Source: Phellopilus nigrolimitatus (lineage: Eukaryota > Basidiomycota > Agaricomycetes > Hymenochaetales > Hymenochaetaceae). From it: DNA of 64,000 bases. Below, piece by piece: positions 12,108 through 31,670 of this stretch. Where the stretch lies: the NCBI GenBank assembly GCA_021029095.1, contig JAJOHG010000045.1:124001-188000 (forward strand), given 5' to 3'. Position numbers and translations under genes: made by a program. Below the pieces are notes generated by a model, which was not told where the DNA came from, did not search any database, and was given only the letters and a program-made list of their open reading frames with translations. Each line of letters opens with the position of its first letter. The stretch's first letter is position 1.

Positions 12108-12581
12108 CTACGTTAATAAGCAAAATTGTTTGCTCCAGCCGTCTTTTGCCTCTAAATAGATCCGGCTTAAAATGAACAGTCAGCTCTCTGTGCATTCCTC
12201 TGAGAGGTTTTGCAGCTTACTTTTGTACTCGTAATGTTTCTCGTCGTTCTCGGTAACTTCTCTCACATATGATTTCTGACCCTGCTTTTCAAGTACTTTA
12301 GGAAAGCAGAACTAGTCAGCAACGTGGACAATCATTAGAGACAGACCCCAAACTGAAATACTCACATTCAACACTTTTCAGGAGCCTCTCAGCCAGCCTG
12401 TCTGGAATATTTAGACATGCAAGAACATCAAATGTTAATTCTATCCATTTCCCTGTTTTAAGGTCGGCCCGGACTCTCTGAAATTACGGGAATGTGTCAG
12501 GGTCCGGAGCATTTCCAGCTCTAGTTGCAAACTCACATCTTGGAGCTCGAGCAGCTCATTACGTTCTGTAGTTGACATCAT
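12108..12581 (-). CDS. Small 4-exon gene of undescribed family, member A
   Basis: Exons (on -) 12581-12537, 12477-12366, 12295-12221 and 12151-12108 join in frame to 91 codons plus stop. All three introns (59, 70, 69 nt) have GT-AG ends and GTGAGT/GTAAGC donors. The protein starts MMSTTERNELLELQD and contains GKWIELTFDV, LLEKQGQKSYVREV and HYEYKKAKDGWS. It is charged, with no signal peptide, membrane span or domain I recognise. The gene lies between thioesterase A and decayed Argonaute A, with a TATA box about 110 nt upstream. Members B and C share intron positions, phases and most intron bases, but the exons are strongly diverged. The frame is intact although the Argonaute and thioesterase beside it are dead, which supports real coding. 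Function unknown. Confidence 0.72.
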
Positions 12582-12693
12582 ATAGTTAGATTTTTAATGT
12601 TATTTAAAAACTTGTTGAAAGCTGTTGAGGGGCTCTGAGGGCTGGTGCTGGGACTGTGTTCAGTTGATGGAGTTATGCAGAACACACAGGGCC

Positions 12694-12700
12694 TTTTATA
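12694..12700 (-). promoter_or_regulatory. TATA box of small gene A
   Basis: TATAAAA on -, followed by GGCC, 113 nt before the ATG. It is present at the same place in all three small-gene copies, inside a strongly conserved upstream block. Confidence 0.7.
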
Positions 12701-12835
12701 CGTGCAGCTCCAAGCAGCAATGAGCACATCAAAGCCCACCTCAACCTCAAGACTATTGCAAAGCGCAACAGTTTTTCAGGGATGCAATGGTCTTGACATG
12801 ACAACCGCAATCTCTGGTTCCATTGTACAATAAGA

Positions 12836-14004
12836 ATGCATGTGGTGGGACTCGTATGCAAGAATCTCATGCTCAATGTAGATATCTGCACACGCATTCT
12901 GCACTCTGTATGCACGCCTCAGCGATGCAATGATCGATTTTTGGAAAATGTCATATGCATAATGCTTTTACCTATGCATGAGAGCCGCAATGAGACACTC
13001 GGCACATCGAACAAAGTATTGTAACAAAGGGCTTGGAAGACAAAGTGGCAAGGGCAATGTCCTTCCAATGCGACAAAACTCGGCAGGAAGGCTGTCGTCA
13101 AGCAGCACCTCTGGCAAAGCAAGCACATCTGCACAGAGCCAGTTTGTAGAACTGGTTGCGATGGGCAGAATGCAATGTTCAGCTCCAGTATGCGGGCACC
13201 CTGCCCGCCATGGGCGTCGGAAACTAGGATAGGGGGACGTCTTTGGCCCTGCTGAGCTCTGCGAGACAGAGCCGGGCCAGCCTCGCACAGGTGTGCTCTC
13301 CGAGGACGCATCTCAAGAAATGGTAAAGAACACAAGCAGTCCGCCGTATGTCACGGTGGGAAGGGCCAGGAGATATCAGATCCTCATCAATGCACTTTGC
13401 CAATGCTGGACTTTGGCGACAAGGTGCCAGTACGCGTGGTCCGCCTGAGCGCGCCATATCTGGATGATGCCTGCACAGCATGCGCATCCGTGCACCGCCA
13501 CCCGTGCGTCTGGAGGCTTTAGAGGCAGCTCGGATGAGTGTCGCTGTGCGGGGGCTCCTGCTGGCGTGCCGCGCGAGCGGGATCCAGGCCGGCGAATGCG
13601 CATCCCCACTGCTGCGTCGCGTGCGGCTTCGCGGTAGGCTCGACAGGACGTATAAACGTATCGTATATCGCAGTGGTAGAGAGGGAGAGACGCAAGTGCG
13701 CCCTTGGGCGCGCGAACATCACGCGCGGTGTTCGTATCGAACGATAATGCGGCTGGCCTGCCCGGGTCTGAGGAAGCTCGGTTGGCGGCGCTGTGCCCGT
13801 CGTCCCGGCGGAAAGCGCACACTCGGCACGAAGCTTGGCGGTGTCCGCCTCCAGCCCGACGCGGGCGCCGTGCTGGCGCAGAAATACGACGCTCGGCGGA
13901 ACGGACGTGGCGACGCGGCGCACTGCGCCCTGGCGCTGGCTGCACGAGGGGAGTCCCGCTGGCGGTCGTATACGCTCGTTCGCTCGGACTTCGCAGATGC
14001 GCAT
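12836..14004 (+). pseudogene. Decayed Argonaute A
   Basis: Blocks follow the order of the full Argonaute: KNLMLNVDICTRILHSV (linker 1, compare KNLMINVNACTSVFYTP), GRxGNVLPMRQNSAGR (PAZ), CETEPGQPRTGVLSEDASQEMVKN (compare CEIEPGQPFVGVLSESESQGMVQN), and a PIWI remnant near 13,835-13,900 (TKLGGVRLQPDAGAVLAQ). Stops and frameshifts occur throughout. Many differences from the better copy are CpG changed to TpG or CpA. The start overlaps the promoter side of small gene A, which is transcribed away from it. Confidence 0.82.
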
Positions 14005-14013
14005 TAGGATGGG

Positions 14014-14544
14014 CGGGCGGGAACAAGGGCGGCAAGCATGCATGGCCACAGTCTGCGCTTTTCATTTCATCACAGCATACACGCAGGCGCACTAGAGAGC
14101 CAGACACACCCCTCAGCCAATCGAAAGCAAGCCACAGAACACAGAACACAGCGCAGAGTAACAAAAAAAGACACGGTGAAAGACAGACGCGAAGCGCGGC
14201 GGAGGCGACTACACTACCCAGAGTCACGAAAAAAAAGGGACCCGAACACAAAACCAGCGAAAAGGGGGCGGGGGGGACGAAGGACGCAGGGAGAAGGGAG
14301 AAGGAAGAGGGGTCTACTAGCTAAGTGTACTGCAGCGATTAAGAGAGTTCGGAGGGTACGGAGGGTGGGTCTAGTTATTGTCCGGAGGCGAGAGGCGGTA
14401 GGGAAGAGGGGGCGGATAACAGGCGCCCGTATACAATACAATACTATAAGTCCAGGAAACGCGTCCATTTGCGTCTCGAACTAAATGTCATATTTTTTGA
14501 AGGGAGTCCATGCACGGAGAACGAAGAGAGTGACCGAGACGCTT
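14014..14544. other. 3' flank shared by decayed Argonaute and deacetylase
   Basis: Highly similar to the reverse complement of 29,430-29,960. Purine-rich on +, with no gene. It is the downstream region of the deacetylase fragment on the other strand. Confidence 0.65.
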
Positions 14545-15357
14545 TTAGGCGACTGCGAGCGCCGCGACTGCTGCTGCGGCGAGCAGGCCGAGGAAGGCCG
14601 GGGCGGCCGTCTGGGCAGCAGCGCTGGCCGTATCGCCCGCCTTCGCGGCTGCACTCGCGCTCGCGGACGCCGAAGCCGCGCTGGCGCTGGCGCTCGCGGA
14701 CGCCGCGCTCGCCGATGCCGCGCTCGGTGCCGCCGCCGAGGACGAGGCGGGTATGAGGCTGTTGAACGCCGCGTCCGTCTCGCGGCCGTCCTGCTCGGGC
14801 CCCGCGCTCGCGTTGAGGCGCGCCTGGCTGACGGTCGTCCAGTTGTTCTGGTGCGCGAGCGGCCAGGCGGCCATGAACGCGCCGATCGTGTTGTTGTTCA
14901 GCTCGTGCTCCAGGATGATGAGCCCGGGCGTCTTCGACCCCGTGAGCCAGGTCTGCATGTTGGTTTGGATCGCGGGCAGCGTGGTGCCCCCCGGCGAGCC
15001 GACGCTCCAGTCCTCGGTGTCCTGGTTCCAGAGCACGGCGGTGATGCCGAGGACGGCGGACGCGATCGCGGAGACGCGCGTGTCGATGTCGCCGTACGGC
15101 GGGCGCCAGAAGCGCGGGACGCGCCCGCCGGTGGAGTCGTAGATGATCTGCATCGTCCACGCGAGCTGCGAGAGCACGTCCGCGTTGGACAGCGTCGTCA
15201 TGTACGGGTGCGTCCACGTGTGCACGGCGATGTCGTCGTCGTTGACGGTGGAGGCGATGAGGAACTCCTGCCAGTTGGAGAGGATGTTCAGCCCGATCAT
15301 GTAGTGCGTCGCGGTCTGGTTCTGCGCGCGCAGGAAGGCGTAGAGCGTCGGCGAGTC
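14545..15357 (-). pseudogene. Chitin deacetylase, exon 3 only (5'-truncated duplicate)
   Basis: Carries the entire last exon of the deacetylase at 27.8-29.4 kb, from DSPTLYAFLRAQNQ to the Ser/Ala-rich tail and hydrophobic C-terminus. It keeps HTWTHP, RPPYGDID and LEHEL of the NodB domain, but lacks the signal peptide and the FDDGP metal/catalytic motif encoded by exon 2. The frame is open and nearly identical to the full gene; the few visible replacements include STVNDDD for STVNNDD and GSKTPG for GTKMPG. Homology continues about 32 nt into intron 2 and ends at 15,389. With no promoter or start it is probably not expressed as an enzyme. Confidence 0.9.
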
Positions 15358-15389
15358 CTGGCGGAGACAGGGCGCGTCAGCACGACCTG

Positions 15390-16402
15390 ACAGTTTTTGA
15401 AGTTACTATTTGCTTTTTCAATGAGTTATGCAAGTGTTGTCTAAATACGGCAACTTGTTGGTTGAGGAACAACACACTCCACGCCCAACACGGACTTCGT
15501 CTCATTTTTGCATGGTACCGGCAGCGATTGTACTCCACATCTGTTGAGTCGTTTGTTCGTGCACTCTGGGTGGAAGTCAGCTCTCAGGTGTCGCCTACAA
15601 TGGACTCGTCTCGCAAAATCGCTACGTTTTCTCAGCACGGTGACCCGCTCAAGCAACTGTTGTTGTATTTTCGAGAGCAAGGAGACTGTCTCGGGGCTTG
15701 TCGAGGGCACCATGGTTCCAATGTGACATTACGCAAACATGGTCGAGCAGTTCGAGGATGATCCGCTCGAGTGCGCATCGGCCTGTCGTTTTGGCGAGTG
15801 CGAGTGCTGCCTCCAGCACAGGCGGACTCACCGCTTTTGGTACGATTCGCCGCCAGGCTGCCACGGATGTACTGCGGGCGCTCGTTGCGAGTGGTTTCGA
15901 GGCAGACACGACGGAGGTTGTACTTGGTCGGTTCGGCCGCGGGCTGCAAGCGTATGCAGCGGACCCAAAAAGCGCTCGACTCTCTTTTCCGAAATCTCAA
16001 CAACACCCAGCCGTCCGCTGTGTCCGAACCCGGCCCAATGCCCATGCCCCCTACTGTCGCCAACATGAACAAGAACAATCATTCCGTACTCAGGTTCCCC
16101 TGCTGAACACTAACAGCACTTCTCCCGCAACACCCGTCGCCTCAATCACCGCCGCCCCTCACTCCTCGGCTGGGTCCGCCCAGAACCAGCTGCCCGCAGG
16201 CCGCCAGAGCGCGCTGCTCGGCTCAACCGTCGCTCCCTCGGGCATGTCATCGAGCGCCACCTCTGCTGGGAACCAATCACTCATTCCCCACCAGCCCCCA
16301 AGTCTGCCCAGCATCGAGCAGCGTGAGCAGTGCGCGCGGCTTATGCAGTCTGGAAATGAGGCCCAGGGGAAGATTTTGCTCGAGCAGTTGATGTCCGGGT
16401 AA
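15390..16402 (+). other. Coding-like remnant, Ser/Pro-rich, unidentified
   Basis: Several overlapping frames look partly coding. The clearest ends in LPSIEQREQCARLMQSGN followed by a good GTAAGT donor at about 16,400. A second frame upstream reads ALDSLFRNLNNTQPSA. The change of frame between them suggests missed introns or frameshifts. Together with 16,900-17,350 this may be one gene interrupted by the palindrome-bearing stretch between them. Family not recognised. Confidence 0.3.
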
Positions 16403-16900
16403 GTTTTTTCTTTCTTTTTCGACACATCTTTGTGTATGACGCAGCTTCCGCGCTTCGATATCTCCTTTATGTTGCGATCCCCCCTTTGAACCGAAGATCT
16501 CTTTTTTGAATTGATTCCCTTAGAAAACGGTGTCCGATCGATTAGTAACACTTGTACTCATGACTTCATACAGTAATCTCACTTCAGGCACCCCCCTAGA
16601 GTAGACCTATTAGGTCAATCCTACCTATAGGAGGGTTCACTCTATTAGGTCCCCCACAGCTACCTGCTTCCCATGGGCTGATGGGAATTCCCATATGCTT
16701 GGGAATTCCCAAGCATATGGGAACTGAATTACAAGAACTTATAAAGTTCTCATATGTTAGCGTATATATAGGCTCTCTACATGCCCAAAATAAGGCTCAA
16801 TTAATTTGACTTCACCAAAGTATCTGCTGTCATAGGGACTTGAATGTCCTGTACCTTTTTTTTTCTATTAGGGAGTTAATCTAGTGCTCTGATTTGGTCC
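16403..16900. other. Palindrome-rich AT/GC-mixed insert
   Basis: Contains the 36-bp palindrome described separately, two copies of CTATTAGGT, and a direct repeat resembling GGTCCCACAG-TAC-TGCTT near 16,652 and 16,894. It may be a small non-autonomous element inserted into the surrounding coding-like remnant, but no terminal inverted repeat pair was established. Confidence 0.3.
16688..16723. repeat. 36-bp perfect palindrome
   Basis: Arms TTCCCATATGCTTGGG and CCCAAGCATATGGGAA are exact reverse complements around a central AATT, so the whole is uninterrupted. It contains nested GGGAATTCCC. Confidence 0.95.
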
Positions 16901-17600
16901 CACAGTACTACTGCTTTCTACAAGTAATCTCGGAAAAACTGGTTTTGGCGATCCGTCTCAGGGCTCCTGCCCCCAGTCCGCACCCCTGCCCCAGTCGTGC
17001 GGCCCTTTCCCCACAGGCGCGTATCAAGCACGGTATACTCAAGAGCCGTCGCGCGACTTCCAACCCCAGGCTCTGCGAGCACAGCCGAAACCCCCCTCCC
17101 CAGTCGCAAGTTCATGTTCGACTTCGTCTCGCCCTCTGACGCCTCGCGTCGACCGTCGCAGCCGCCTCTTCTGGAAAGAAGAAGGCCGATCTGGTCACAC
17201 TCGCGCCCAAACCGCGGGACTCCGAGGACGCCTGGACGTCGCTCGCTGCGGACCCGGAGCGCAAATTGATGGAGAACCTTATGGACCAACTGACCCGGAG
17301 TTAGAGCCTCCAGCTCCCTCCGCTGCAGCGCCAGCTCGACTCGTACAGCCCTGAGCCAGGTACCCCGCCGAGCGAGCCCATTCGGTTCCAATCAAAGGTG
17401 CAGTACCCCCCAAGTCACAGACGCTTGGCTCGCCGCGCGGATCACCACCTCGGGCGTGGGGTCTGGATATGCGGGGCAGCGATCCGTTCGGACCTTACTC
17501 TTCATACCATTGTATGAGGATAGACCGGCTCGTTGACCATTGGAGCTTTTAATGACCCCTTCGGCCAGTCGAACCGCTTGTAACCAATGTGTCACCGTTT
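16900..17600 (+). other. Decayed coding fragment (FMFDFVSP / KLMENLMDQL)
   Basis: One frame gives KFMFDFVSP (about 17,110). A frame shifted by one base then gives SGKKKADLVTLAPKPRDSED followed by ERKLMENLMDQL (about 17,170-17,300), ending at a stop. The conserved-looking, Ser/Pro-flanked motifs suggest a linker region of a larger fungal protein. A resemblance to the low-complexity region of fungal decapping-enhancer-like WD40 proteins is possible but unverified. The frameshift and lack of upstream domains make it a remnant. Confidence 0.3.
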
Positions 17601-17673
17601 ATGTGCGCTATCATGCATAATGATAATAGCTCAGAACAACCACAACTTCAGATACTTTTTATCTACTTAATAC

Positions 17674-17828
17674 ACAGGTCCTGCGGGTCACCCGCCATAA
17701 TCACTCTGACCCGGACCCGCTTGAACCGGATCCGCGGGTCCGGGTCATTTCTCGGGTCCGGGTATGAATTTTGAAAATCTCATACCCGTGCAAACGGGTC
17801 CGGGTCTACCCACGGATCGGCCCGCGCA
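17674..17828. repeat. GGGTCCGGGT-rich hairpin repeat
   Basis: Contains GACCCGGACCCGC (17708-17720) and its exact reverse complement (17734-17746), plus a second hairpin with 9-bp arms CGGGTATGA (17759-17767) and TCATACCCG (17780-17788). The motif GGGTCCGGGT recurs four times over both strands. It looks like a dispersed structured repeat; no ends were found. Confidence 0.7.
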
Positions 17829-17835
17829 GAGCGCT

Positions 17836-18093
17836 AAGTAGAAGCAAACACAGGTCCTTAGCACTTAGGAAAACCCGTAAGCTTCTTATTCACTGGCAAA
17901 CAATTGACTAGACACCTAACTCGTCCTCGGCACAGGGAAAGGCATTAACAGCACCAGAAAATACGGTGGAAATTGAAACGAATACGTACAGCGTACTAGA
18001 AGCGTGTTTCTCAGCCATCGTGGTGGGTCCTCTGCTTCTAGAGGTGGCTCTCATACCTCTCAGGGTGGCCAGGGCAACACGTCCTTCAAATAC
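17836..18093 (+). pseudogene. Argonaute 5'-end fragment at a deletion junction
   Basis: Matches the upstream region and Gly/Arg-rich start of the Argonaute at about 5,281-5,520, including the GTAAGC donor and the HRGGSSASRGGSHTSQGG codons. It then switches abruptly, after CACGTCCTTC, to sequence matching 9,610 onward. The body of the gene has been deleted in this module copy. Confidence 0.85.
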
Positions 18094-18448
18094 TACCTTC
18101 GCAGATATATGGTATGCACGATCAATATCAGAACGAATTCTGCTGATGATACTGGGACAGATATCTGTCTTCTTACAAATCTAAGAAGGACAGAGTCATG
18201 GGATTAATGCCAACGGCGACAAGAATTAGGTTCTCCGACTCGACCGACGGTCACCGACCTGTCGACACGGGAACTACGACTACTTCATCTGTTTATCAGC
18301 TCTGAACCACTATCTTGCTCTTGACCTTTCCGTATCGCGAGCTTGTAAACTCTAGATATCACGGTACGTCCAGATAGTTATGCCCTTAATCCTGCTCGCC
18401 GAACTGAAATCTGATGAAAGCTGTTTAAGTACTCAATCTTAAACAGGA
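18094..18448 (+). other. Thioesterase upstream region, copy B
   Basis: Parallel to 9,610-9,960 and to 33,880-34,190 in reverse. No gene recognised; probably promoter and 5' untranslated region of the thioesterase. Confidence 0.5.
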
Positions 18449-19786
18449 ATGGTGCCCCTCGGCGAAGCGCTTCAAGTGATTGAGATAGAGAATGACGGAA
18501 CCGGAGGTGGAAAAGAGAGTACATGGGGAGGGCAGATTGACGGTGACTGGACCGTTTTTGTGTGAGCTATCTTTCCTTGACTGTCGCTTTCCTCCTTTCA
18601 TATCATTTAATCGGGAGTTGTCTCTTTCCTCTTTCCAGCTTACCGAACGGAGGTTGGTTTCTCATCATTTCCAAATTTGAATAATATTGATGTCTCTTCT
18701 TCAGGATACTCTCTTGGGCTCATGATCGAGTCATGCATAGCACACCAGAAAAAACACTCTCCCGGTCTTCTAGACCCTATACATGTCTCGGCGTACTATC
18801 TACGGCCTACGTGAGTATTTGTCAGAGCAGATGACAGGTTCGGAAACGCATAAACAAGCCGCCCTGTTCGAGGTACGTGTGAAGACCGTGAAACTCGGTA
18901 AACAAATGTGCAACATTGAAGCGGAGATGGTTCAAAGGGTAAGTGTTCTAATTGGAGTACGAGATGTCATTTTTCCTTATCGAAGAACAGGGCCAGACAA
19001 CCATCTCCGCCCGTTTAATTTTTCGTCTGCTCTCTCCCATCAAAACCGCTGTATCCGAGTTCATTGAGCCTAAGACACTCAATCCGCCGTCTCCGTATGC
19101 TCAGCGCACCCCACTTCGCACGCACCCTTCGAACGCTTCTAGCATGCCTCTCCATGCTGTGTGGAACTTCAAGAAACACATCAGCGGGAAGGAAGACAAA
19201 GTGCTGACCAACATGAATCGACCAGAGAATCGGAAATTCTCAAGTCGCAGCACCGCAGAAGTCGAAGCCGAGATTACAGGTTTGGACGGACAGCATGAGC
19301 CTCCTGGCCTGGAATTCAACACGTTTCTCACGTTGAAGTGCGAAGGACGCCTGCGTCCGACATTGTTAAGCCTCTCCCGGAACTTCTACCATCTGAAGAG
19401 AACCCGTTGCAAGGGAAGACGTCAGCTTCTTTCCCAACCTAAATGTGGGAATTGTTTTCTTCGTCTGCGTGCTGACATATTATCATCAATGCAGGTGGTA
19501 CGCGACACTTACATTGTCGGTCGAGTTCAAGACACCCCTCCGGCTCTACGACTTTGACCCACAACAGTCCTTTCCCCATGACACGGTCGGCTTGTATTCT
19601 TTAGGCTGATTCATGCAGGACCCGCTTGGACGACGTGAAACCTATGTCGAGGTTTGGACGGCACCGCGAAATAGGTAAGAGGCGAAGATTGGAGGGAGAA
19701 GCAACGATGCCTGGCAATCGCGACGCAGGCAGCTATATGCGTGCCGTACGAGACGCAGGTAGTACCTATAAAAGCGAGGCCGTAGG
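18449..19786 (+). pseudogene. Hot-dog thioesterase-like, copy B
   Basis: Same block order as copy A. The N-terminal exons are intact (KESTWGGQIDGDWTVFV, LPNGGYSLGLMIESCIAHQKK, HVSAYYLRPT), with introns at 18562-18638 and 18653-18704. A TGA replaces the Gln codon after RPT, two bases are lost shortly after, and the 22-nt deletion shared with copy C removes part of the ...RLRP(S)MLAFCADI region and shifts the frame. Non-functional. Confidence 0.8.
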
Positions 19787-20591
19787 ACGCTGCCAAGTAT
19801 CCGTTAGATTGTTGTTGAGAACGTTCGTGGTGTGCTGGGCCAGCGACGCGCCATAAAAGCGAAGATGCCATTCGGAGACACGTTGTTGAGCCAGCGAGAA
19901 GCGCAGTCGCGCGCAGGTGTGCTGCGTGCTGCCGGTTAGCTTACAGGAATGCTTCTTCCCATCATTTTCATCTGCTAGCAGCTAAAAATGATTGCCCAGC
20001 TCTTAGTTATGGATGCGCGGTCCATCGGTATCTTCCTGCGGGTCAAAGAAATTTCCAAACCGTAGTATTTCACTCCAATCATGAGCTCCATGCCGGATAC
20101 CCAAACTCGGCCAGCCGATCTTCTGGGACAAGCTCTGTCCCGAGCTCGTGTTCAACATTGAAACAGCAGTATGAATAGAATCAGAAGGAACACCCTTGAA
20201 TAGAATGTTATATGATGTAATGAATTTGAACAGAGAATAATGGAAAACAGGACTGGAGAGTAAATCAAAATAGCATTCTGCAAAATTCCAATAATGTTTT
20301 ATAATATCCCATCGATTCCAGCAACGGGATTCCCCTGATAGCATTTACACTGTTGAACACTTTACAATCCCATCAATTAGAGACTGTGATCTAGGCCATT
20401 GTTCAGACATATGAGTCATGTGAACTGTCCATGTTGAAGCTCATCTTAGCTTTAGTTTATTTTTTGAGAGTATTAGAAAAAGGTTGGTTTCGCTTGACTA
20501 CTAGTACTGAACTCTGCCGATGAGGCAAATAGATAAGAGATCAAGTACGTACATGTGCACTAGCTACATATACTTCATGGTCATGATTACA
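19787..20591. other. Shared 3' block and spacer, copy B
   Basis: Counterpart of 11,310-12,107, with the repeated GGTCAAAGAA / AAGCTCTGTCC block at about 19,930-20,160. No gene seen. Confidence 0.6.
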
Positions 20592-21084
20592 TTAAACTTT
20601 TCTGACGTATAGATTTTCAAGTTCCCACGGGCCAACACGGCCTGCCAGAGGTCTTTCCACATTGTCTGTCCCTAAATATGTATGTTATAAAAGAAATTGT
20701 CAGCTTCCTGCATTTCCACAAGAAGTTTCACAACTTACGTTTGAAGTAGTACTTAAACACGTCATCAATGTCTTTAAGCCTTTTCATGTAGAGTCTGCAA
20801 CCCTCTTTTATGGCAGCTTTAGGAAAGCGAAACTAGTCAGCAATGTGGACAAACATTAGGGACAGACCCCAGTTTGAAATACTCACATTCACGGAACACT
20901 TCAGCCCCATCCCTCACATTTTCGGGTAGAGAGCTAGGAAGGCCCTCTGTTACATCTTGCCATTCTCCTTCTTTATCTAGCCTTTTAGCCACAGTTTCCT
21001 GTAATCACAGGCATGTCTCAGGGCCCAGGACGTGTTCAGTCCTAGTTGCAAACTCACGCTCCAATTATAATCTGTACTTGGCAT
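20592..21084 (-). CDS. Small 4-exon gene of undescribed family, member B
   Basis: Exons (on -) 21084-21058, 20998-20887, 20816-20739 and 20671-20592 give 98 codons plus stop, all junctions GT-AG and in frame. The protein begins MPSTDYNWS and contains GEWQDVTEGLPSSLPENV, AIKEGCRLYMKRLKDIDD, FKYYFK and a longer last exon (TDNVERPLAGRVGPWELE). Compared with member C, introns 1 and 2 are almost identical (by hand 57/59 and 66/70 bases), while exon 2 agrees at about 13 of the first 24 residues and then not at all. Exon 3 agrees only at its start. No signal peptide or known domain. Position and TATA box are as in the other copies. Confidence 0.75.
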
Positions 21085-21194
21085 CCTATAAGTTGATTCT
21101 TAAGCTTAAAACTTGTTGAAAGTGGTTTAAAGGCTCTGAGGACTGGTGTTGTGACTGTGTTCAATTGATGGAGTTCTGCAGAACACACAGGGCC

Positions 21195-21201
21195 TTTTAT
21201 A
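21195..21201 (-). promoter_or_regulatory. TATA box of small gene B
   Basis: TATAAAA on - with GGCCCTGTGTGTTC following, 111 nt before the ATG; conserved in position with the two other copies. Confidence 0.7.
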
Positions 21202-21338
21202 TGTGCAGCTCCAAGCAGCAATGAGCACATCAAAGCCCACCTCAACCTCAAGACTATTGCAAAGCGCAACAGTTTTGCAGGGATGCAATGGTATTGTCAT
21301 GACAACCGCAATCTCTGGTTCCATTGTACAATAAGAAT

Positions 21339-22620
21339 GCATGTGGTGGGACTCGTATGCAAGAATCTCATGCTCAATGTAGATATTTGCACACGCATTC
21401 TGCACTCTGTATGCACGCCTCAGCGATGCAATGATCGATTTTTGGAAAATGTCATATGCAGAATGTGTTTACCTATGCACGAGGGCCGCAATGAGACACT
21501 TGGCACATTGAACAAAGCGTTGTAACAAAGGGCTTGGAAGACAAAGTGGCAAGGGCAATGTCCTTCCAATGCGACAAAACTCGGCAGGAAGGCTGTCGTC
21601 AAGCAGCACTTCTGGCAAAGCAAGCCCATCTGCACAGAGCCAGTTTGTAGAACTCGTTGCGAAGGGCAAAATGCAATGTTCAACTCCGGCGCCCTGCCCG
21701 TCATGGACATTGGAAACTAGGATAAGGAGACGTCTTTGGCCCTGCTGAGCTCTGCGAGACAGAGCCGGGCCAGCCTCGCACATGCGTGCTCTCCAAGTAC
21801 ATGTACATGTCTCAAGAGATGGTGAAGAACGCAAGCAGTCCGCCGTATGTCATTTGTGCAGGGGAGTGGTGGGAAGGGCCTGGCAATATCGGATCCTCAT
21901 CAACGTGCTCCACCAATGCTAGGCTTTGGCGACGAGGTGCCAGGCGACACAGCAGCTGTTTGAATACGTGTGGTCCGCCTGAGCGCACCATCTAGATGAT
22001 GCCCCTGCACAGCGTGCGTACCCGTGCACCCGCCACCCGCGCGCCTGGAGACTTTAGAGGCAGCTCGGATGCATCACTGTACGGGCCCCCTGCTGGCGTG
22101 CCGTGTGAGCGGAATCCAGGCAGACGACATGCACCTACCGCTCCATCTTGTGCGGTCCCCGTGTATACTCTACAGGATGCATTGCGCACCGTGGTGGTGA
22201 CTGCATCGGCTGAGATGGAGACGCAGGCGCGCCCTGGGCGCCAGAACATCCCGCGCGGTGTGCAAGTTCGTATCAACAATGCGGCCTACTCCGGTCTAAA
22301 GACGTTCTGCGGCGCTGCGGCCGAGATCCCGGCGGCGCGCGTGCGCCGTCATCACGAAGCTTGGCGGCGTTCCACCACCAGCCCGACGCGGGCGCCGCAC
22401 TGGCGCAGAAACACGACGCTCGGCGAAACGGACGTGGCGGGCCGCGCCCTGACGTCTGCGGCGCGAGGAGGGATCCAGCGACCGCCGATGGTGGTACTAT
22501 GTAGTTGCGCTGCAGAGCACACATCCGGCGCGCCTGGGGCGCCAGGGCACGCGGCAAAGCGGCGCATGTTGTCTCCGCGAACGGCGCCCTTGTCCCGGAC
22601 GCGCGCAAAACCCCAAACAA
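21339..22620 (+). pseudogene. Decayed Argonaute B
   Basis: Same blocks as decayed copy A: KNLMLNVDICTRILHSV near 21,360, the PAZ remnant near 21,550-21,620, an EMVKNASSPPYV remnant near 21,820, and the TKLGG-like PIWI remnant near 22,355-22,430, which continues to a stretch shared with 9,060-9,240. Disrupted in every frame. CpG-to-TpG/CpA changes dominate the first half. Confidence 0.8.
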
Positions 22621-22888
22621 TATCGAGGCAAATGCAGTTTGCTATGCAACCATCATTCAAGGCGGTAGAGGATATCTAGTATATCCGCATGTATGAAAAT
22701 ACTTGAAATACTGTTGTAAACTCTTACAAAGTGAGCATGTATGAGAAACACGCGTAAATGTGGTGGCTGTGCCTGTTGGACCGTTGCAACCCGAACATGT
22801 TATTTTTAACACAATTTTCATTGCGCCCTGCGCTGCCTTCTATGAGCTCTGCATTTTTGCGATACAACGAACAACTCAGAGGATTAGA

Positions 22889-24695
22889 ATGCATATTAAC
22901 ACGGTCTTTTCCAACACGGAAATCCGCAGCTTAGTCTTTTCTTTGATCTCGAAACGAGACAACGCGCGCTGTTCTCGGGTCTGTCGTCTGTGGAAGGACG
23001 TCGCATTGGACATCGTATGGGAGGAAGTGGATGGGCTGCTTCCCTTCCTGAACCTTCTGGCACCCATGAAGGTTATTGAACATAAGAAGGTGTGTAACGT
23101 CGGATCCTTCAAATCTTTACGAAGTATTGACATACGCAGTCGGGGCCAGGTTCGGGGCCAGACTCGGAGTCCGGGTCGAATGCTTATGATGACAAATCGG
23201 CGGTGAGCAGTGTGATATAGTGTAAAACTATTAGCGATTATTGAAATATGTGAGCCAGGATTTCACTCGTCGTCTATGCCAAGAGGATTGGAAAAAATTC
23301 TTAACGTACTCCAAACGCGTCAAACATCTGGCAGTTAGTTCTATCCTTAGAAGCAAAGAACTTCCCCGTGCCGCGCGCTGGCATCCACGTCAATATTCAC
23401 AAATCGAACTTGACGACAACGCCTTTGCGCAGATCGTCGAATCCTGTCCACGAGTTGCTTTCCCAAATATTTCGACTCTCTCTGTCAAAGATATCCGGGA
23501 CTCGTGGATGAAACACGTAGAATTCTTCTGTCACAAAACCGTACAGAAACTTTCACTCGCCGAACTCGATCTCCGTACGGCGCGTTTTCTCGAAGAAATT
23601 ATCCGAATATCACCACGGATATCAACACTCGTTTTGGGATACATCGACGATGACAAATCCTTAAACAAGAAGATCCTGCCAGCGATACTCTCTAGATTAA
23701 CATGTTTGATCGATCTGCAGCAGCATCATGAATGTGTCGCCTACCACAACTGGCTACCGAGTCTGGCAACTCTTCCGAGGCTTCGTTACATACGAAATAC
23801 CGCTTCTGACGTTTACCTGAAGTACAAACCCATAACTAGACTTGACTGCGAAAATGTGTTTCCGTCTTTGGAAATCGTCGAATTGGTGGGCGCATTGGGA
23901 GAGTTCAGCCTTCTTTTTAGCTCCCCCGGTGCTTTCAGAAAACTTGTCGTCTTAAGCGTAGACCAATCTCGTCCAGATGTAGAGGGGCTTGCTTCTTTCC
24001 TATTTGCAGTCTCGCACAGTAGTCCTTTGCTGCAAACGATCGCTATCACGAATAGCGACGCGAGGTGGGCTTTCGGCTACGAGGACCCTATCACATTTCA
24101 TACCTTTCGCCCATTGGCCCGTTTGTCTCGACTTCGAAGTTTTGAACTAGTGCATTGGACAGTCCTGAATATTACCGACAGTCAATTTGCCGACATATTC
24201 ATGCACTGCATCTCCTTAGAGACGTTATGGATTATCCAGCATTCTGGCACACGGGATGACCGAAAGAGCTCGCTGACCCTTGGTGTACTCGTATCACTCG
24301 CAGAACATTGTCCGCAAATAACTCGTCTCCGAGTTCGTATCGACTTAGTCACTGTCCCACCTTCAACGCTCGTCTTGCCCACAGCGTTCGCCGGATTGCG
24401 CGTTTTACATCTCGATCGCTCGCCTTTTCCTCAAGATCCCTCAGATGTGGCCATATTTTTGGGGAAGGTCTTGTCAGAGAAATGCAATGTCTACGCAGGC
24501 GATCACCGCTCGCATAAATCATGGAAATACATATTGCCATCGCTCTCTCGGCACTTTGAGCAGAGGCGTGCGGAGCTTCCTCTTCTACCTAAAAACGACG
24601 ACCCCGCTCGCGAGGGCAGGCTAGCTTTGCTGGAGGAGGAGATTGCTACCCTGAAGGCCGCACTTTCATCCGCGAGGGAAGAAACAGCGGCTTAG
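22889..24695 (+). CDS. F-box protein with leucine-rich C-terminal region
   Basis: Probable substrate adaptor of an SCF ubiquitin ligase. Exon 1 (22889-23089) carries the F-box: NTEIRSLVFSLISKRDNARCSRVCRLWKDVALDIVW. Intron 23090-23258 joins EHKK in frame to DFTRRLCQEDWKKFLTYSKR, the usual post-F-box segment of basidiomycete F-box proteins. The body (545 aa in all) shows irregular LRR-like spacing of Leu/Ile (FPNISTLSV, LQTIAITNS, LRSFELVHW, LETLWIIQ, ITRLRVRI, LRVLHLDRS) and ends in a coiled coil (RLALLEEEIATLKAALSSAREE). After the TAG at 24693 the same frame continues as coiled coil for about 60 codons (ENSALKDRISALQRLVSEQG) to about 24,870, so the tail was probably cut by a point mutation. 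Confidence 0.85.
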
Positions 24696-24869
24696 AGGGC
24701 AGAAGCGGGCGTCGCAGGAAAAGCACGGAAGGACGAGAACTCGGCTTTGAAAGACAGGATCTCAGCCCTGCAGCGGCTCGTCAGCGAGCAAGGCAGGGCA
24801 CTGGGAGAGCTGCTCGAAAGCAAGGCCAGCGCAGAGAATGGCCCGCGTTCGCGGACGGGCCGAGGCTAG

Positions 24870-27700
24870 TGCCGCCTGATTCGAGTTTCTCAAGAGTCGA
24901 AATGTTTCGAAGTGCTCGTAAGAAAGGTATGTTCCTAGCTGCTATTACTTGCATATACTCATAATAAATCCATTAACGTTCCTTTTTAGATTGTCAGCAT
25001 TCTACATCGCCTCTTTATTCTTGAGAGTATCATCCTCGCGGCTGGTTTGTTTTCGATTAATGATTGTAGTCGGCGTGCGTTCTCGATTGCTCCTGTGAAA
25101 CCCGAGAGTGGACCTTTCGCGAAGATTGGCAACATCATTATTAAAAAAAACCATTCTTGCTCGCCAAAAAAAAGCTCGAGATAATTTAGCCGCGACAGAC
25201 ATCGCGATGAACCGGCGTTGTACATGTACATAGATAGTATTCGATGTCCGACCTGTGTATTCATGCTAGCCATCGCTCAGTAAGTTCCCACCGGATAGGA
25301 TTACTGTAAGCATCCGATCATTCCCCGCACATTTACCGAGCGATGATTTGTGCCGCGCCATCGCTATTCCCTCCAAGTCGCCGCCGTCGGTATTGGAAGC
25401 CGGACCAGAATGTCGATAAGGGCGAGTCGGCCTCAGAGCTCACACCGCGGTGCTTTTCGTTTTCGCTCTTGTATCCATATTTGTCATTGCCGGGGCGCGG
25501 TGTGCAGCGCTGTCGAAGAGTGCCGCTGCAGGACGTTGCAGCCAAATCGGCGCAGCGGCGCGCCGCGAAACCGAAACCGAAAGCCGGAGACGCGTCGCTG
25601 GGACAGTGAGCGGTGTGCAGTCGCGCACGCGGGCGCTGCGTGTCCGCGCGGCAGTGGTTACTGTGTGCTGGGCATAAGAGGGGGAGAAGAATAATAGACA
25701 AGAAGGGAAGGAAAAGGAGCCTGCGCCGTAGATATCCTTTACGGGCTCAATCGAGCCCTGCTCGAGACCTACATTCCCGGCCCGCGTACTGGTACCACCG
25801 AACCTTGGTGTTTTTGCTTCGCTTCCTGGAGGCCATCTACACACGCGCCACTACCGCTCAAGTCCTGGGATCCCGCAGGTGGTGTCCCATCTCCGTTTCA
25901 GCTTGCCGCTAAGGTGTAACGCGTGGCATTCTAAGCCTCCAGTGTTTTCAACAGTGAGCGGAGTCGGTCTGCGCGCCTTGGGCCATGGAGGACACCAGAG
26001 TGCCAGACTGTACTGTACCGCAAGCAAGCCACCGAGTCAAAAGGGCGTATCGACACGCGTATAATTCGAAGGCCAGCATAATGCACGGTACGCGCGCGTC
26101 TAGGTCGCACAAGTCTGCAAAAAAAAAAAAAAATCCAGGTGTGAGATTGATAGGTAGGACGGGAGACACGAACGGATGTCTTACTCTTGGTCATCTAAAG
26201 GCATTTGGCGCAACACACTTCAAACTCGGCAACCGTCGCGCTCTGTGCTCCCACTCCGCCGAGGCGCACGCGCGCTTGCACGAGCTGCTGTAGGCCAGTG
26301 GGCTTGCCTCTGCCTGACGCTGTTTCGATATGCAAGGCAAGCGCGCTCGCCGAGTAACCCTGTGGCGTGCTTTATGGAGTGGACGCGCTGCCTTCAATTA
26401 TCCGCGTTCGCACTCCGCATCCGCTTCAGCTTCTGCGCTTCGTCTTTGAGCTGTGGGCGCCTGCGCTCGCTCGACCTGCGAGGCGCACCCCCCGAATATG
26501 AAAACGAAGATCGACGCGATAGATAAGGAGAAGAGCGAGCTCACCTCGAAAGTCACCGATATGGAGTTAGATGTGGGATGCGATGTTCTTCCTGGAGGCA
26601 AGAGATATGATCGAGAAAGGAGAGGGTACCGTGTCTGAGGCGGCGGCGATTCGTGGATGCACGCGCCCACGGAACATGCGACTGTACTTGGTTTCGCGTC
26701 GCTACGTCTTTGAAGAATATGTGCTGCGCCCGCCGTCGCTCGACGGGCTCCAACGAATACACGACCGCGGCCACGGCCGAACCGATCGTTCGAACGCGGA
26801 AACCGCATGCCCCGTCCCGCGCGGGCCCGTCCCAGAGTTCGGCGTTCGCGTCGCAACTGTCTTCGCGTTCTGCACCCAGCGGCCGTTGGCGTTGGCATTG
26901 GCGTTGGCATTTCTTCTGATCCTGTCGTTCGACGACTCGGACGTTTTTCCTGTATCAACGCACTCAACAGCGCGAAGAACGTCTCATATATGTACGCCGC
27001 CACGCGCACCCGCATGTGCTTCCGCGCGGGATACGCACCGATAAGCCACACACAAAACGTCCCGCGCGGCAAGTTCCAGCCTGGTGGTTACACACACCGC
27101 GAGGGCACCAAACGAAGCAAGCACGAAGCGCCAAGCGCCACACGTGTTTGTCCGGCAGACGCGTCGGGGCGAATGCGGCTGCGAACGGCCACGCCGGGCA
27201 GGAGAGAGCGATTCGGCAGGGGCGGCAGGGGCCGGCAGCGCGCGGCACGGAGTTGATGCGGCCGGATGCGGGTATAGGAGGTGACGGAGCGTACGTGATG
27301 GGCGGGGATCAGCACGGCGAGAAGGGCAGGCGGACGCGGAGATCCGGAAGATCAGGCGGAGGCGCGCGGTCTGTGTCGACGGCGCGTGCGCTAGAAGGCC
27401 CAGGGCTGTGCTCGATCTGCATCGCCGATTTCGATTTCAACTCGAGCGAGAGAGACGGTTTTGTACGCGCTCAGCGTGCATCAAGGGCCATGTCCGTCAT
27501 TAGGAGAGAGAGCACTGATCGCCATTTCATCTTTTACTTTAGCGGAAGACAGAAGGAAAGAAAAGTAAAAGAGTAAAGAGTTAAGAGTAAAACATACGGA
27601 TAACGGGTGTTTCAGAAATCAACTAGCCCTCTTCGGCTCGTCTCATTTTTCCCTTTTTTTCTCGTCTTCGGCATCAGCAAGCCGCGCCCTGGCACGGCCA
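24870..27700. other. Long stretch without a supported gene
   Basis: AT-rich to about 25,300, then GC-rich. Long open frames on both strands in 25,340-27,580 are Arg/Ala/Ser-rich and appear in several overlapping frames, as expected of GC-rich non-coding DNA. A + frame at about 26,570-26,760 (FFLEARDMIEKGEGTVSEAA, YVFEEYVLRPPSLDGLQRI) looks more protein-like and could be a small gene remnant. A run of 15 A lies near 26,118. Confidence 0.4.
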
Positions 27701-27745
27701 ATCGAGCTGCCCACACTCCATTTCTGCGACTCGCAAGGGGCGCCT

Positions 27746-27750
27746 TATAA
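27746..27750 (+). promoter_or_regulatory. TATA element of the deacetylase gene
   Basis: TATAA 83 nt before the ATG, followed by a C/T-rich leader with long CCCTCCC tracts, a usual fungal arrangement. Confidence 0.45.
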
Positions 27751-27832
27751 CCATGCGTGCCCCTCTCCCCGGGCAGCCTCAGGTCCAGTCGCTCGCTCCC
27801 CCTCCCCTCCCCTCCCTCCCTCTCTCCACACC

Positions 27833-29425
27833 ATGCTCGTCCTCCCCCGGCCCGCGTCTGCGTCCGCCGCCCTCGTCGTCGTCGTCGCTGCGCTCTCTCT
27901 CGCCGTCTCTGTACACGCCCACCCGCATCCCGCGCCCGGCAGCAGCCGCACGCGCGCCGCCCAGCCCCTCCCCGCGACCTGGTACCACGACGCCGACCAC
28001 CCCGTGCACGCCCTCTTCCGCCGGCAGCCCGCGCCCGCCAGCCTCGGCCGGCGCGCCGCGAACGCGACACCCTCCGTCGGCTCTGACAGTGCGTGCCCCC
28101 CCCTCCCCCCCCGCTTCACTTCTCTCTTCTCTTCTCCCCTGACGATCATTCATTCATCCCCCGCCCGCCTCGTATATCTTTCCCACGCCCCCTTCTCCCG
28201 CGCATCACGTGCGCGTCCAGGCTGGACGGCGCAGTACCCCGCCTCGACGCCCGACGCCGCGCAGCTGCCCGCCGCGTGGACCGCCGCGCTCGCCGCCGCC
28301 GTCGCCGCGGGGCACATCCCGGACTACCCGCCCTCCGCGGAGAGCGGCGGCGCGGGGCCCGTGTACCCCGGCGCGCTCAACGCGGACCGCAACAACGCGA
28401 CGATCTGCGCCGCGACGGACCGCGAGTGCCGCATCCCCGGCGACATCTGGGACGCCCCGGATGGCATTATGGGCATCGGCTTCGACGACGGCCCGACCGA
28501 GGTGAGTACAGTCTGTCTGTTGAGGGGAGGCGGCGCGTCCCGGCCCGCGTCGAGGCGCCCCCGTTCCTTTCTTTCTCCCACGCTCCGCGCTGACGCGCCC
28601 TGTCTCCGCCAGGACTCGCCGACGCTCTACGCCTTCCTGCGCGCGCAGAACCAGACCGCGACGCACTACATGATCGGGCTGAACATCCTCTCCAACTGGC
28701 AGGAGTTCCTCATCGCGTCGACCGTCAACAACGACGACATCGCCGTGCACACGTGGACGCACCCGTACATGACGACGCTGTCCAACGCGGACGTGCTCGC
28801 GCAGCTCGCGTGGACGATGCAGATCATCTACGACTCCACCGGCGGGCGCGTCCCGCGCTTCTGGCGCCCGCCGTACGGCGACATCGACACGCGCGTCTCC
28901 GCGATCGCGTCCTCCGTCCTCGGGCTCACCGCCGTGCTCTGGAACCAGGACACCGAGGACTGGAGCGTCGGCTCGCCGGGCGGCACCACGCTCCCGGCCA
29001 TCCAAACGAACATGCAGACCTGGCTCACGGGCACGAAGATGCCCGGGCTCATCATACTCGAGCACGAGCTGAACAACAACACGATCGGCGCGTTCATGGC
29101 CGCCTGGCCGCTCGCGCACCAGAACAACTGGACGACCGTCAGCCAGGCGCGCCTCAACGCGAGCGCGGGGCCCGAGCAGGACGGCCGCGAGACGGACGCG
29201 GCGTTCAACAGCCTCATACCCGCCTCGTCCTCGGCGGCGGCACCGAGCGCGGCATCGGCGAGCGCGGCGTCCGCGAGCGCCAGCGCCAGCGCCGCTTCTG
29301 CGTCCGCGAGCGCGAGTGCAGCCGCGAAGGCGGGCGATACGGCCAGCGCTGCTGCCCAGACGGCCGCCCCGGCCTTCCTCGGCCTGCTCGCCGCAGCAGC
29401 AGTCGCGGCGCTCGCAGTCGCCTAA
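27833..29425 (+). CDS. Chitin deacetylase, secreted and probably GPI-anchored
   Basis: Converts chitin to chitosan in the cell wall. Exons 27833-28088, 28221-28501 and 28613-29425 give 449 aa. An N-terminal signal peptide (ALVVVVAALSLAVSVHA) is followed by a Pro-rich stretch and the NodB polysaccharide-deacetylase domain with all main motifs: GFDDGPTE, HTWTHP, RPPYGDIDTR, WNQDTEDW and LEHEL. The tail is a Ser/Ala repeat ending in a hydrophobic segment (AFLGLLAAAAVAALAVA), typical of a GPI signal. Intron 1 (132 nt) is a multiple of three with no stop, so intron retention would keep the frame. Exon 3 is duplicated at 14.5-15.4 kb. This gene straddles the inner edge of the right repeat arm, so it is the source copy. 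Confidence 0.93.
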   Translation: MLVLPRPASASAALVVVVAALSLAVSVHAHPHPAPGSSRTRAAQPLPATWYHDADHPVHALFRRQPAPASLGRRAANATPSVGSDSACPPLPPRFTSLFSSPLTIIHSSPARLVYLSHAPFSRASRARPGWTAQYPASTPDAAQLPAAWTAALAAAVAAGHIPDYPPSAESGGAGPVYPGALNADRNNATICAATDRECRIPGDIWDAPDGIMGIGFDDGPTEVSTVCLLRGGGASRPASRRPRSFLSPTLRADAPCLRQDSPTLYAFLRAQNQTATHYMIGLNILSNWQEFLIASTVNNDDIAVHTWTHPYMTTLSNADVLAQLAWTMQIIYDSTGGRVPRFWRPPYGDIDTRVSAIASSVLGLTAVLWNQDTEDWSVGSPGGTTLPAIQTNMQTWLTGTKMPGLIILEHELNNNTIGAFMAAWPLAHQNNWTTVSQARLNASAGPEQDGRETDAAFNSLIPASSSAAAPSAASASAASASASASAASASASASAAAKAGDTASAAAQTAAPAFLGLLAAAAVAALAVA

Positions 29426-29959
29426 AAGCGTCCCGGACACTCTCCGTTCTTCGAAAAAATATGACATTTGGTTCGAGACGCAAATGGACGCGTTTCCCTG
29501 CACTTATAGTATTGTATTGTATACGGGCGCCTGTTATCCGCCTCCCTGCCCCTCCCGCCTCTGGACAATAACTAGACCCACCCTCCGTACCCTCCGAACT
29601 CTCTTAATCGCTGCAGTACACTTAGCTAGTAGACCCCTCTTCCTTCTCCCTTCTCCCTGCGTCCTTCGTCCCCCCCCCCCCCGCCCCCTTTTCGCTGGTT
29701 TTGTGTTCGGGTCCCTTTTTTTTCGTGACTCTGGGTAGTGTAGTCGCCTCCGCCGCGCTTCGCGTCTGTCTTTCACCGTGTCTTTTTTTGTTACTCTGCG
29801 CTGTGTTCTGTGTTCTGTGGCTTGCTTTCGATTGGCTGAGGGGTGTGTCTGGCTCTCTAGTGCGTCTGAGTGTATGCGTGTATGCTGTGATGAAATGAAA
29901 TGTGCAGATTGGCTACATTCATATCACGCCCTGTCCCCGCCCGCCCATCCCAATGCGCG
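29426..29959. other. Deacetylase 3' flank
   Basis: Pyrimidine-rich, closely matching the reverse complement of 14,014-14,544. Includes a run of 14 C near 29,672. No gene. Confidence 0.6.
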
Positions 29960-31030
29960 TCTGCGAAGTCCGAGAGCGAGCGAACGTACGACCACCAGCA
30001 GCGATTCCCCTCGTGCAGTCGACGCCAGGGCGCAGTCCGTCGCGTCGCGTCGGCTCCGCAGAGCATCGTGTTTTTCCGTACCAGTGCATGGCGCCCGCGT
30101 CGGGTTGCACTTGCGTCTCTCTCTCTCGGCCACCGTGGTGCGCAATACGTCCTGTCGAGTCTACCGCGGGAACCGCACGCGACACAGCAGTGGGGATGCG
30201 CATTCGACGGCCTGGACTCCGCTCGCACAGTACGCCAGCAGGAGCCCCCCGCACAGCGACACTCATCCAAGCTCCTCCAGGCGCGCGGGTGGCGGTGCAC
30301 GGGTGCGCATGCTGTGCAGGCATCATCCAGATGGCGCGCTCAGGCGGACCATGCGTACTTGAACAGCTGCTGTATCGCCTGGCACCTCGTCGCCAAAGCC
30401 TATAATTGGCGGAGCACGTTGATGAGGATCTGTTATCTTCAGGCCCTGCCCGCTCCCTATGCAATGACATACAGTGAACTGCTTGCGTTCTTTACCACCG
30501 CTCCCCTGCACAATGACATACGGCGGACCACTTGCGTTCTTTACCATCTCTTGAGACGCGTGCTTGGAGAGCACGCCTGTGCGAGGCTGGCCCGGCTCTG
30601 TCTCGCAGAGCTCGGCAGGGCCAAAGACGTCCCCCTATCCTAGTTTCCGACGCCCATGACGGGCAGGGCACCCGCATACTGGAGCTGAACATTGCATTCT
30701 GCCCATCGCAACCAGTTCTACAAACTGGCTCTGTGCAGATGCGCTTGCTTTGCCAGAAGTGCTGCTTGACGACAGCTTCCTGCCGAGTTTTGTCGCATTG
30801 GAAGGACATTGCCCTTGCCACTTTGTCTTCCAAGCCCTTTGATACAATGCTTTTTTCAATGTGCCAAGTGTCTCATTGCGGCCCTCGTGCATAGGTAAAC
30901 ACATTCTGCATATGACATTTTCCAAAAATCGATCATTGCATCGCTGAGGCGTGCATACAGAGTACAGAATGCGTGTGCAAATATCTACATTGAGCATGAG
31001 ATTCTTGCATACGAGTCCCACCACATGCAT
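29960..31030 (-). pseudogene. Decayed Argonaute C
   Basis: On - it reads the same series as copies A and B (KNLMLNVDICTRILYSV, a PAZ remnant, SQEMVKNASGPPYV), then an internally deleted PIWI part in which sequence before and after the TKLGG block is joined. Broken in all frames. Confidence 0.8.
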
Positions 31031-31165
31031 TCTTATTATACAATGGAACCAGAGATTGTGGTTGTCATGACAAGACCATTGCATCCCTGCAAAACTGTTG
31101 CGCTTTGCAATAGTCTTGAGGTTGAGGTGGGCTTTGATGTGCTCATTGCTGCTTGGAGCTGCACG

Positions 31166-31172
31166 TATAAAA
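31166..31172 (+). promoter_or_regulatory. TATA box of small gene C
   Basis: TATAAAA followed by GGCCCTGTGTGTTC, 112 nt before the ATG, as in the two other copies. Confidence 0.7.
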
Positions 31173-31283
31173 GGCCCTGTGTGTTCTTCAGAACTCCATC
31201 AATTGAACACAGTCCCAGCACCAGCCCACAGAGCCCCTCAACAGCTTTCAACAAATTTTAAAGCAAAACAATCAACTTACAGG

Positions 31284-31670
31284 ATGCCAAGTACAAAAGA
31301 TATGAGCGTGAGTTTGCAACTAGGACTGAAAACGTCCTGGACCCTGAGACATGCCTGTGATTACAGGAAACTCAGGCTGAAAATATAATTAATGCAGGAA
31401 AATGGCTAGATGTAACAGAAGGCATTCCTATCTCTCTTAAGTTCCCTTTCAAAGAGACGAGGGGTGATCTTGAACATCACCGTAAATGTGAGTATTTCGG
31501 ACTGGGATCTGTCCCTAATGTTTTTCCACATTGCTGACTAGTTTCGCTTTCCTAAAGCTGCCATAAAAGAGGGTTGCAGATTCTACACGAAAATGTATCG
31601 CTTTGGTGGCCTAGTGTTCCTGACCTGCGACCCGAAAGCATTTGAGAGATTGGCAAGAAACATATTATAA
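31284..31670 (+). CDS. Small gene of undescribed family, member C
   Basis: Exons 31284-31307, 31367-31487 and 31558-31670 give 85 codons plus stop, with GT-AG introns of 59 and 70 nt. The protein begins MPSTKDMS and contains GKWLDVTEGIPISLKFPFKE and AIKEGCRFYTKMYRFGGL, ending FERLARNIL. Relative to A and B the third donor (GTAAG) has become ATAAG, so exon 3 reads through to a TAA and the fourth exon is lost. Exon 3 is unlike member B after its first dozen codons even though flanking introns match almost base for base. No known domain, signal peptide or membrane span. Confidence 0.7.

Follow-up and report, generated by a model that had tools for sequence, protein, structure and literature searches.

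Small multi-exon genes of Phellopilus nigrolimitatus whose exons diverge faster than their introns

Three small genes and their family

The DNA analyzed here, called the window, is a stretch of 64,000 nucleotides (nt) from Phellopilus nigrolimitatus (Hymenochaetaceae), positions 124001-188000 of contig C390 in an assembly of 56.4 Mb and 635 contigs. It contains three small genes, A (12108..12581, minus strand, 91 amino acids (aa)), B (20592..21084, minus strand, 98 aa), and C (31284..31670, plus strand, a frame of 85 aa), which an earlier note had singled out because their exons appeared to diverge faster than their introns. Contig C27 represents the second haplotype of the same region, and the whole analysis rests on DNA comparison within one strain and its two haplotypes. 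Coordinates, start codons, intron positions, and phases were re-derived for A (12581-12108), B (21084-20592), and C (31284-31670), and all agree with those given before.

Gene A consists of exons 12581-12537, 12477-12366, 12295-12221, and 12151-12108 (45/112/75/44 nt), separated by introns of 59, 70, and 69 nt. Its promoter and 5' leader, of a leader type common to distant family members, occupy 12582..12706 (minus strand, extent approximate) with a TATA box at 12700. Gene B has exons 21084-21058, 20998-20887, 20816-20739, and 20671-20592, introns of 59, 70, and 67 nt, and a promoter with leader at 21085..21207 (minus strand, extent approximate) with the TATA box at 21201. In both genes the TATA promoter, exon lengths of 0, 1, and 0 modulo 3, and the donors GTGAGT, GTGAGT, and GTAAG are all present. 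Gene C, whose promoter and leader lie at 31160..31283 (plus strand, extent approximate; TATA box at 31166), retains this layout in exons 1 and 2 only (31284-31307 and 31367-31487). All three frames had been described as open; this is correct for A and B, with four exons each, whereas the frame of C is cut short by a transposable element.

Exon 3 of C starts at 31558 and from about 31612 enters a dispersed element stretch of ~126 bp, the remnant of a small DNA transposon (31612..31737, plus strand; likely a hAT-like miniature inverted-repeat transposable element (MITE)). The stretch recurs on contigs C614, C446, and C599 (97-98%), with poorer copies on C625 and C555. At the same point of C, haplotype C27 carries a 1.4-kb insertion (61652-63051) whose ends read TAGTGTTC; the 8-bp duplication seen there is imperfect, TGGTGGCC/TGATGGCC (one mismatch). 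These borders were seen on the C27 copy only, and the three other fetched copies of the element stretch differ from it at that end. An 8-bp target duplication together with terminal inverted repeats would be the marks of a hAT-like MITE. The C27 insertion looks nested, with a GGTCAGGTCA-rich element of ~0.5 kb, which has many relatives, containing a repeat of ~0.9 kb with TACGG-type ends. Beyond it lie the remainder of exon 3, intron 3, and an exon 4; on the window haplotype intron 3 and exon 4 were not found, and the gene tail is gone there. Judging from these alignments, C is a truncated gene, and its 85-aa frame ends inside the element by chance. Since the exon 3 tail of C is a transposable element, its divergence provides no evidence for fast exons, and what had been read as a change in exon 3 beyond its first dozen codons is an artefact in the case of C.

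Family matches, found by searching the DNA with promoter and gene, lie at 33 places in the assembly, a lower bound because only the best candidates were scored; both haplotypes are counted and some matches are partial. They are distributed over contigs C2 (1), C27 (3), C390 (3), C53 (2), C68 (4), C112 (9), C256 (1), C266 (4), C268 (3), C359 (1), C489 (1), and C625 (1, split), with C256 and C266, which overlap, both within the count. At E 10, a 12-row protein profile, which included hand-trimmed rows, retrieved just two proteins, both from Phellopilus. Members whose proteins have diverged too far can thus be reached through promoter and intron DNA.

Family members have the TATA box, start codon, intron positions, and donors in common. 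The 0, 1, 0 pattern is kept in 17 of 19 models, the misses being C, owing to the transposon, and M16, owing to an 8-nt difference in exon 2; exon 1 ranges from 9 to 45, exon 2 from 91 to 124, and exon 3 from 69 to 90 nt. Several of the 19 models are near-copies, so that the count overstates independence. The 14 places outside it include M05 and M07 (equal to M04 and M06), M13 (split, no model), M12, M20, M21, and M22. Among these, M12 and M22 also fit the phases, M20 fits with an extra in-phase exon, and M21 breaks them as modelled, its donors being unclear. Intron 2 acceptors were set to the conserved TTGAAG/CTAAAG, and for M08-M11 the intron 2 donor was GTGTAA (out of phase) in the table of exon/intron pairs and GTAAGG (in phase) in the rate tree. 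A second run of exons 2-4 is predicted in M02-M07. The M18 model of 151 aa, made before the protein search, equals the deposited DFH11DRAFT_1587306 over 151/151 residues; for M14, the deposited P0002 begins within our modelled intron 2, and the two models disagree there.

Two copies show further rearrangement. In A2 (C27:42472-43150), the allele of A on haplotype C27, the TATA box is altered and the intron 1 acceptor rebuilt, and the sequence is closer to B than to A. At C625:252889-258528, a copy matching that on C359 (97.6% upstream) breaks off just after the TATA box, with more matches ~5.6 kb further on; this haplotype seems to be split in the leader by an insertion.

Divergence of exons, introns, and codon positions

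Between B and C, 57 of 59 positions match in intron 1 and 66 of 70 in intron 2, while introns 1 and 2 of A and B are 76% and 89% identical. These recounts agree with the earlier hand counts, as does the match of 13 of the first 24 residues of exon 2 between B and C, counted by eye on the proteins. For pairs involving C, we left out the element tail and set introns 1 and 2 against exons 1 and 2 plus the opening 36 nt of exon 3. Differences amounted to 40/172 in exons vs 6/129 in introns for B-C (p = 4e-6) and 78/172 vs 22/129 for A-C (p = 2e-7), and the third of the three C pairs also kept its exon excess (p = 3e-4). Over all exons and introns, A and B differ by 0.51 vs 0.22. Exon and intron divergence are unequal for A, B, and C in these counts, and equality is what the earlier note had named as refuting its claim.

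The same pattern is found across the family. Exons differed more than introns at p < 0.01 in 12 of 15 chosen, non-independent pairs, and the remaining three, near-identical pairs gave no significant difference. In 28 pairs formed by eight members, the mean difference was 0.45-0.55 for exons, 0.29-0.35 for introns, and 0.32 for the leader. The introns of distant members have common blocks that extend beyond the splice sites. This 15-pair table and the 10-pair comparison of replacement and silent sites given below included the element tail in the C pairs, and the tail-free recounts supersede them.

On one maximum-likelihood tree of 14 members, codon positions 1, 2, and 3 evolve at rates of 1.83, 1.74, and 1.22, compared to 0.57, 0.71, and 0.55 for the three introns (splice sites excluded) and 0.46 for the leader. 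This tree omits the broken C and M16 and the near-copies M03, M09, and M11; a 12-member tree, which also omits M02 and M10, gave a bootstrap median of 1.37 for positions 1+2 over position 3 (95% 1.05-1.79; above 1 in 60/60 bootstraps) and of 2.8 (2.3-3.7) for positions 1+2 over introns. Positions 1+2 outpace position 3 under all five alignment settings used; were misalignment the only cause, rates should be leveled across the codon positions. A codon model with a single omega yielded a point estimate of 1.14. As a control, the deacetylase copies beside A and C, which belong to the same duplicated block, have 5, 1, and 13 differences at positions 1, 2, and 3 over 277 codons, and on this count the constraint on them is ordinary.

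For the pair B-C, without the element tail, the proportion of differing replacement sites (pN) is 38.5/135.8 (0.283) and that of differing silent sites (pS) is 3.5/35.2 (0.100; p = 0.048). The distal flank differs at 223/1972 positions (0.113), so that silent sites are on a par with the flank and replacement sites are 2.5 times higher. The exons as a whole exceed the flank (p = 3e-5), and the introns (0.047) lie below it (p = 0.018).

Proteins, haplotypes, and flanking regions

Six family proteins, including A and B and not C, were inspected. The conserved positions are G-W/F in exon 2 and Y-K and VC-R in exon 3. According to hydropathy, which is not a trained predictor, none of the six has a hydrophobic N-terminus or a membrane segment (highest 19-residue value 1.39; means of the first 20 residues -1.27 to -0.49), and cysteines are few. 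These proteins look soluble. Pfam returned nothing above cut-off for the six, with two sub-threshold hits at E 1 and no HET, NACHT, or related domain. A search with the M18 protein against 5.8 billion proteins at E 0.01 found only itself, no relative in other species was found in the protein searches (M18, profile, and B), and sequences in the PDB gave four hits, none better than E 0.66. An AlphaFold model of P0001 alone reached a predicted local distance difference test score (pLDDT) of 47.8. The predicted last residues of M22 (C112:2201000-2202100), CLIS, resemble a CaaX prenylation box in a gene model that is uncertain at its 3' end. The designation as an undescribed family is in line with these searches, whereas "effector-like" is weakened by the lack of a hydrophobic N-terminus or membrane segment in the six proteins and by the description of the species in the literature as a wood decay fungus.

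At two loci the haplotypes diverge most within the gene and right next to it. On the 5' side of A (12.75-16.5 kb), divergence from A2 is 0-5.5%; it rises to 20-39% over the gene itself, stands at 23% in the interval adjoining the 3' end, and falls to 7-14% farther away. Past 16.5 kb the alignment breaks down, since contig C27 lacks a stretch there. M16 and M17, which occupy matching places of contigs C112 and C266, differ by 33% in exons (116/355) and 17% in introns (36/209), with intron 1, at 5%, lying between exons that differ by 43% and 36%. Their flanks differ by 3.0% (150/4966), not counting the nearest stretches (~370 bp upstream and ~750 bp downstream; 3-15% there), and the 500 bp directly downstream of the gene differ by 14%. 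B and C are nearly alike over the gene on both haplotypes, with 0-1 differences in each 250 bp of B.

A mosaic pattern marks the 3' flanks of the three window genes, where sites grouping two of the three fall into 167 runs vs 240 expected (0/2000 shuffles). The 600 bp upstream differ by 3.5-4.9%, compared to 9.5-11.3% in the distal 3' flank. Both the mosaic and the low upstream difference follow from conversion among copies, with a possible contribution of constraint. Elsewhere, several members are preceded by a block of 91% identity (C112:2077136-2077560 and C266:16488-16912), compared to about 75% in the adjoining promoters, as if upstream blocks had been exchanged between copies. No fetched locus contains more than three TTAGGG/CCCTAA telomere words.

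As for neighboring genes, an Argonaute gene lies at 5696..8416 (plus strand), with ArgoN, ArgoL1, PAZ, ArgoL2, Mid, and Piwi spread over five open reading frames. An Argonaute-like stretch at 12854..13425 (plus strand; 69% to 6364-6944) stands head-to-head upstream of A, and matching stretches are found upstream of B (21355-21938) and C (30502-31012). The "thioesterase" named before gave no Pfam match in the three downstream open reading frames tested. The right part of the window (39593-64000) is filled by dense direct and inverted repeats that are about 69-96% alike.

Probable selection and exchange between copies, and a putative recognition role

Taken together, A, B, and C belong to a family, with matches at the 33 places, whose exons evolve two to three times faster than its introns, most likely through diversifying selection that keeps altering the small proteins, with gene conversion and constraint probably holding promoters and introns similar. 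It is unusual for codon positions 1 and 2 of a family to outrun position 3, and such an order speaks for recognition, conflict, or an arms race. The earlier note had offered diversifying selection or exon replacement. Selection gains from the codon-position rates, the excess of exons over introns, and that of the B-C exons over their flank. Replacement does not, as exon 2 of A has no second copy in the genome and the apparent replacement in C is the transposable element.

Several observations weigh against selection as the driving force. Silent sites exceed replacement sites in six of the ten pairs compared (A-B, A-C, A-A2, M01-M02, M14-M15, and M17-M18), most of them deep and near saturation, M01-M02 not so; selection is therefore not proven pair by pair. 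In the four pairs with pN > pS (A2-B, B-C, A2-C, and M04-M06), bootstrap support (0.04) was limited to B-C and A2-C, and without the element tail A2-C has a pN of 0.245 and a pS of 0.138 (p = 0.26; flank 253/2094, 0.121). A2-B is flat (0.193 and 0.185, p = 0.86; flank 0.115), and M04-M06, which of the paralogs aligned by codon across both modules are the nearest to each other, have a pN of 0.035 and a pS of 0.044 outside variable segments. Position 3 itself evolves 2.1 times faster than introns, so silent sites also outrun them, and between M02 and M03 intron change is slightly above exon change. The codon-model tree is very long (16.8), and one tree was assumed for all partitions although conversion is likely. 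Because open frames guided the choice of models, the phase agreement is in part a product of that choice. Moreover, C is broken, A2, M13, and perhaps M16 look broken, and no deposited protein was found for B. Haplotype peaks are not confined to family genes either, as one of 12-18% lies upstream of C (29.75-30.5 kb).

The strongest competing explanation, which we nevertheless consider unlikely, is that recombination brought old allelic lineages, or patches of copies not sampled, into the loci, the exons being old segments and the introns having been homogenized later. It would account for differences clustered in short segments, for the mosaic flanks, for the pairs with pS > pN, and for pS and pN both lying far above the flank in A-B and M16-M17. 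For the latter pair, with a pS of 0.32-0.36 vs 0.03 in the flank, this excess at both kinds of sites suggests ancient allele lineages or segments brought in from elsewhere, rather than recent selection alone. However, no donor for exon 2 of A was found genome-wide, and among the fetched loci the only matches to exons of A, B, C, and A2 are partial ones among these four (a 24-nt exon 4 piece on C27 is C's own). The nearly unchanged intron 1 of M16/M17 between strongly diverged exons and the lead of positions 1+2 over position 3 also argue against it.

A poison-antidote meiotic driver resembling the wtf genes of fission yeast appears quite improbable. Proteins of the wtf type carry several transmembrane helices, whereas the six family proteins have no membrane segment; the fungus is a different one, and no sequence relation is shown. 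The likeness is one of style. In PMC6526906, wtf drivers of Schizosaccharomyces are described as many multi-exon copies with rapid amino-acid change and nonallelic conversion that includes promoters, and the Phellopilus family likewise has many multi-exon copies, some of them broken, mosaic flanks, and no relatives found elsewhere.

A plain lack of constraint on the exons, combined with conservation of promoter, introns, and leader for the sake of regulation or splicing, is very improbable in our view. The B-C introns below their flank, the intron blocks common to distant members, and silent sites above the intron rate would fit this explanation, but the B-C exons above the flank, the phases kept in 17 of 19 models, and the faster positions 1+2 do not. 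A functional RNA borne by the introns, with drifting exons around it, is hardly credible: intron conservation beyond splice signals would agree with it, but Rfam gave no match at E 1 over window positions 11500-33000, and hence no known RNA in the introns there, seven of nine folded introns failed to reach a z below -2 (two did), and exon phases are kept.

If diversifying selection is at work, as we favor, the protein would keep a scaffold at the G-W/F, Y-K, and VC-R positions, while its variable segments would bind a moving target. New variants may arise through substitutions and in-frame insertions and deletions; duplication and ectopic conversion would spread promoter and introns, and selection would favor new exon variants. 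Exons that outpace introns are also known from accelerated animal venom genes, and genes of the major histocompatibility complex (MHC) class I/II combine exons under selection for variation with homogenized introns. In contrast to these, the Phellopilus proteins have no signal peptide-like start and few cysteines, and the six inspected have neither a Pfam match above cut-off nor a membrane segment. We found no paper matching the general pattern, which does not prove its absence in print.

We think that an intracellular role in recognition or conflict is most likely, the proteins either telling self from nonself among nuclei or mycelia or acting as a selfish factor or one directed against parasites. 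Much more tentatively, the genes could form the recognition family of a basidiomycete system for nonself or nuclear conflict, in which exons encode specificity, the alleles of the dikaryon's two nuclei at A and M16/M17 are strongly divergent, conversion spreads the promoter-intron frame, and selection keeps the exons apart. Allele-divergent loci would be a feature in common with fungal het and somatic incompatibility genes, although no HET or NLR domain was found in the six proteins. PMC8229728 calls the mechanisms of somatic incompatibility in basidiomycetes completely unknown, and haplotype-specific exons at named loci of one assembly may provide a directly testable candidate for them.

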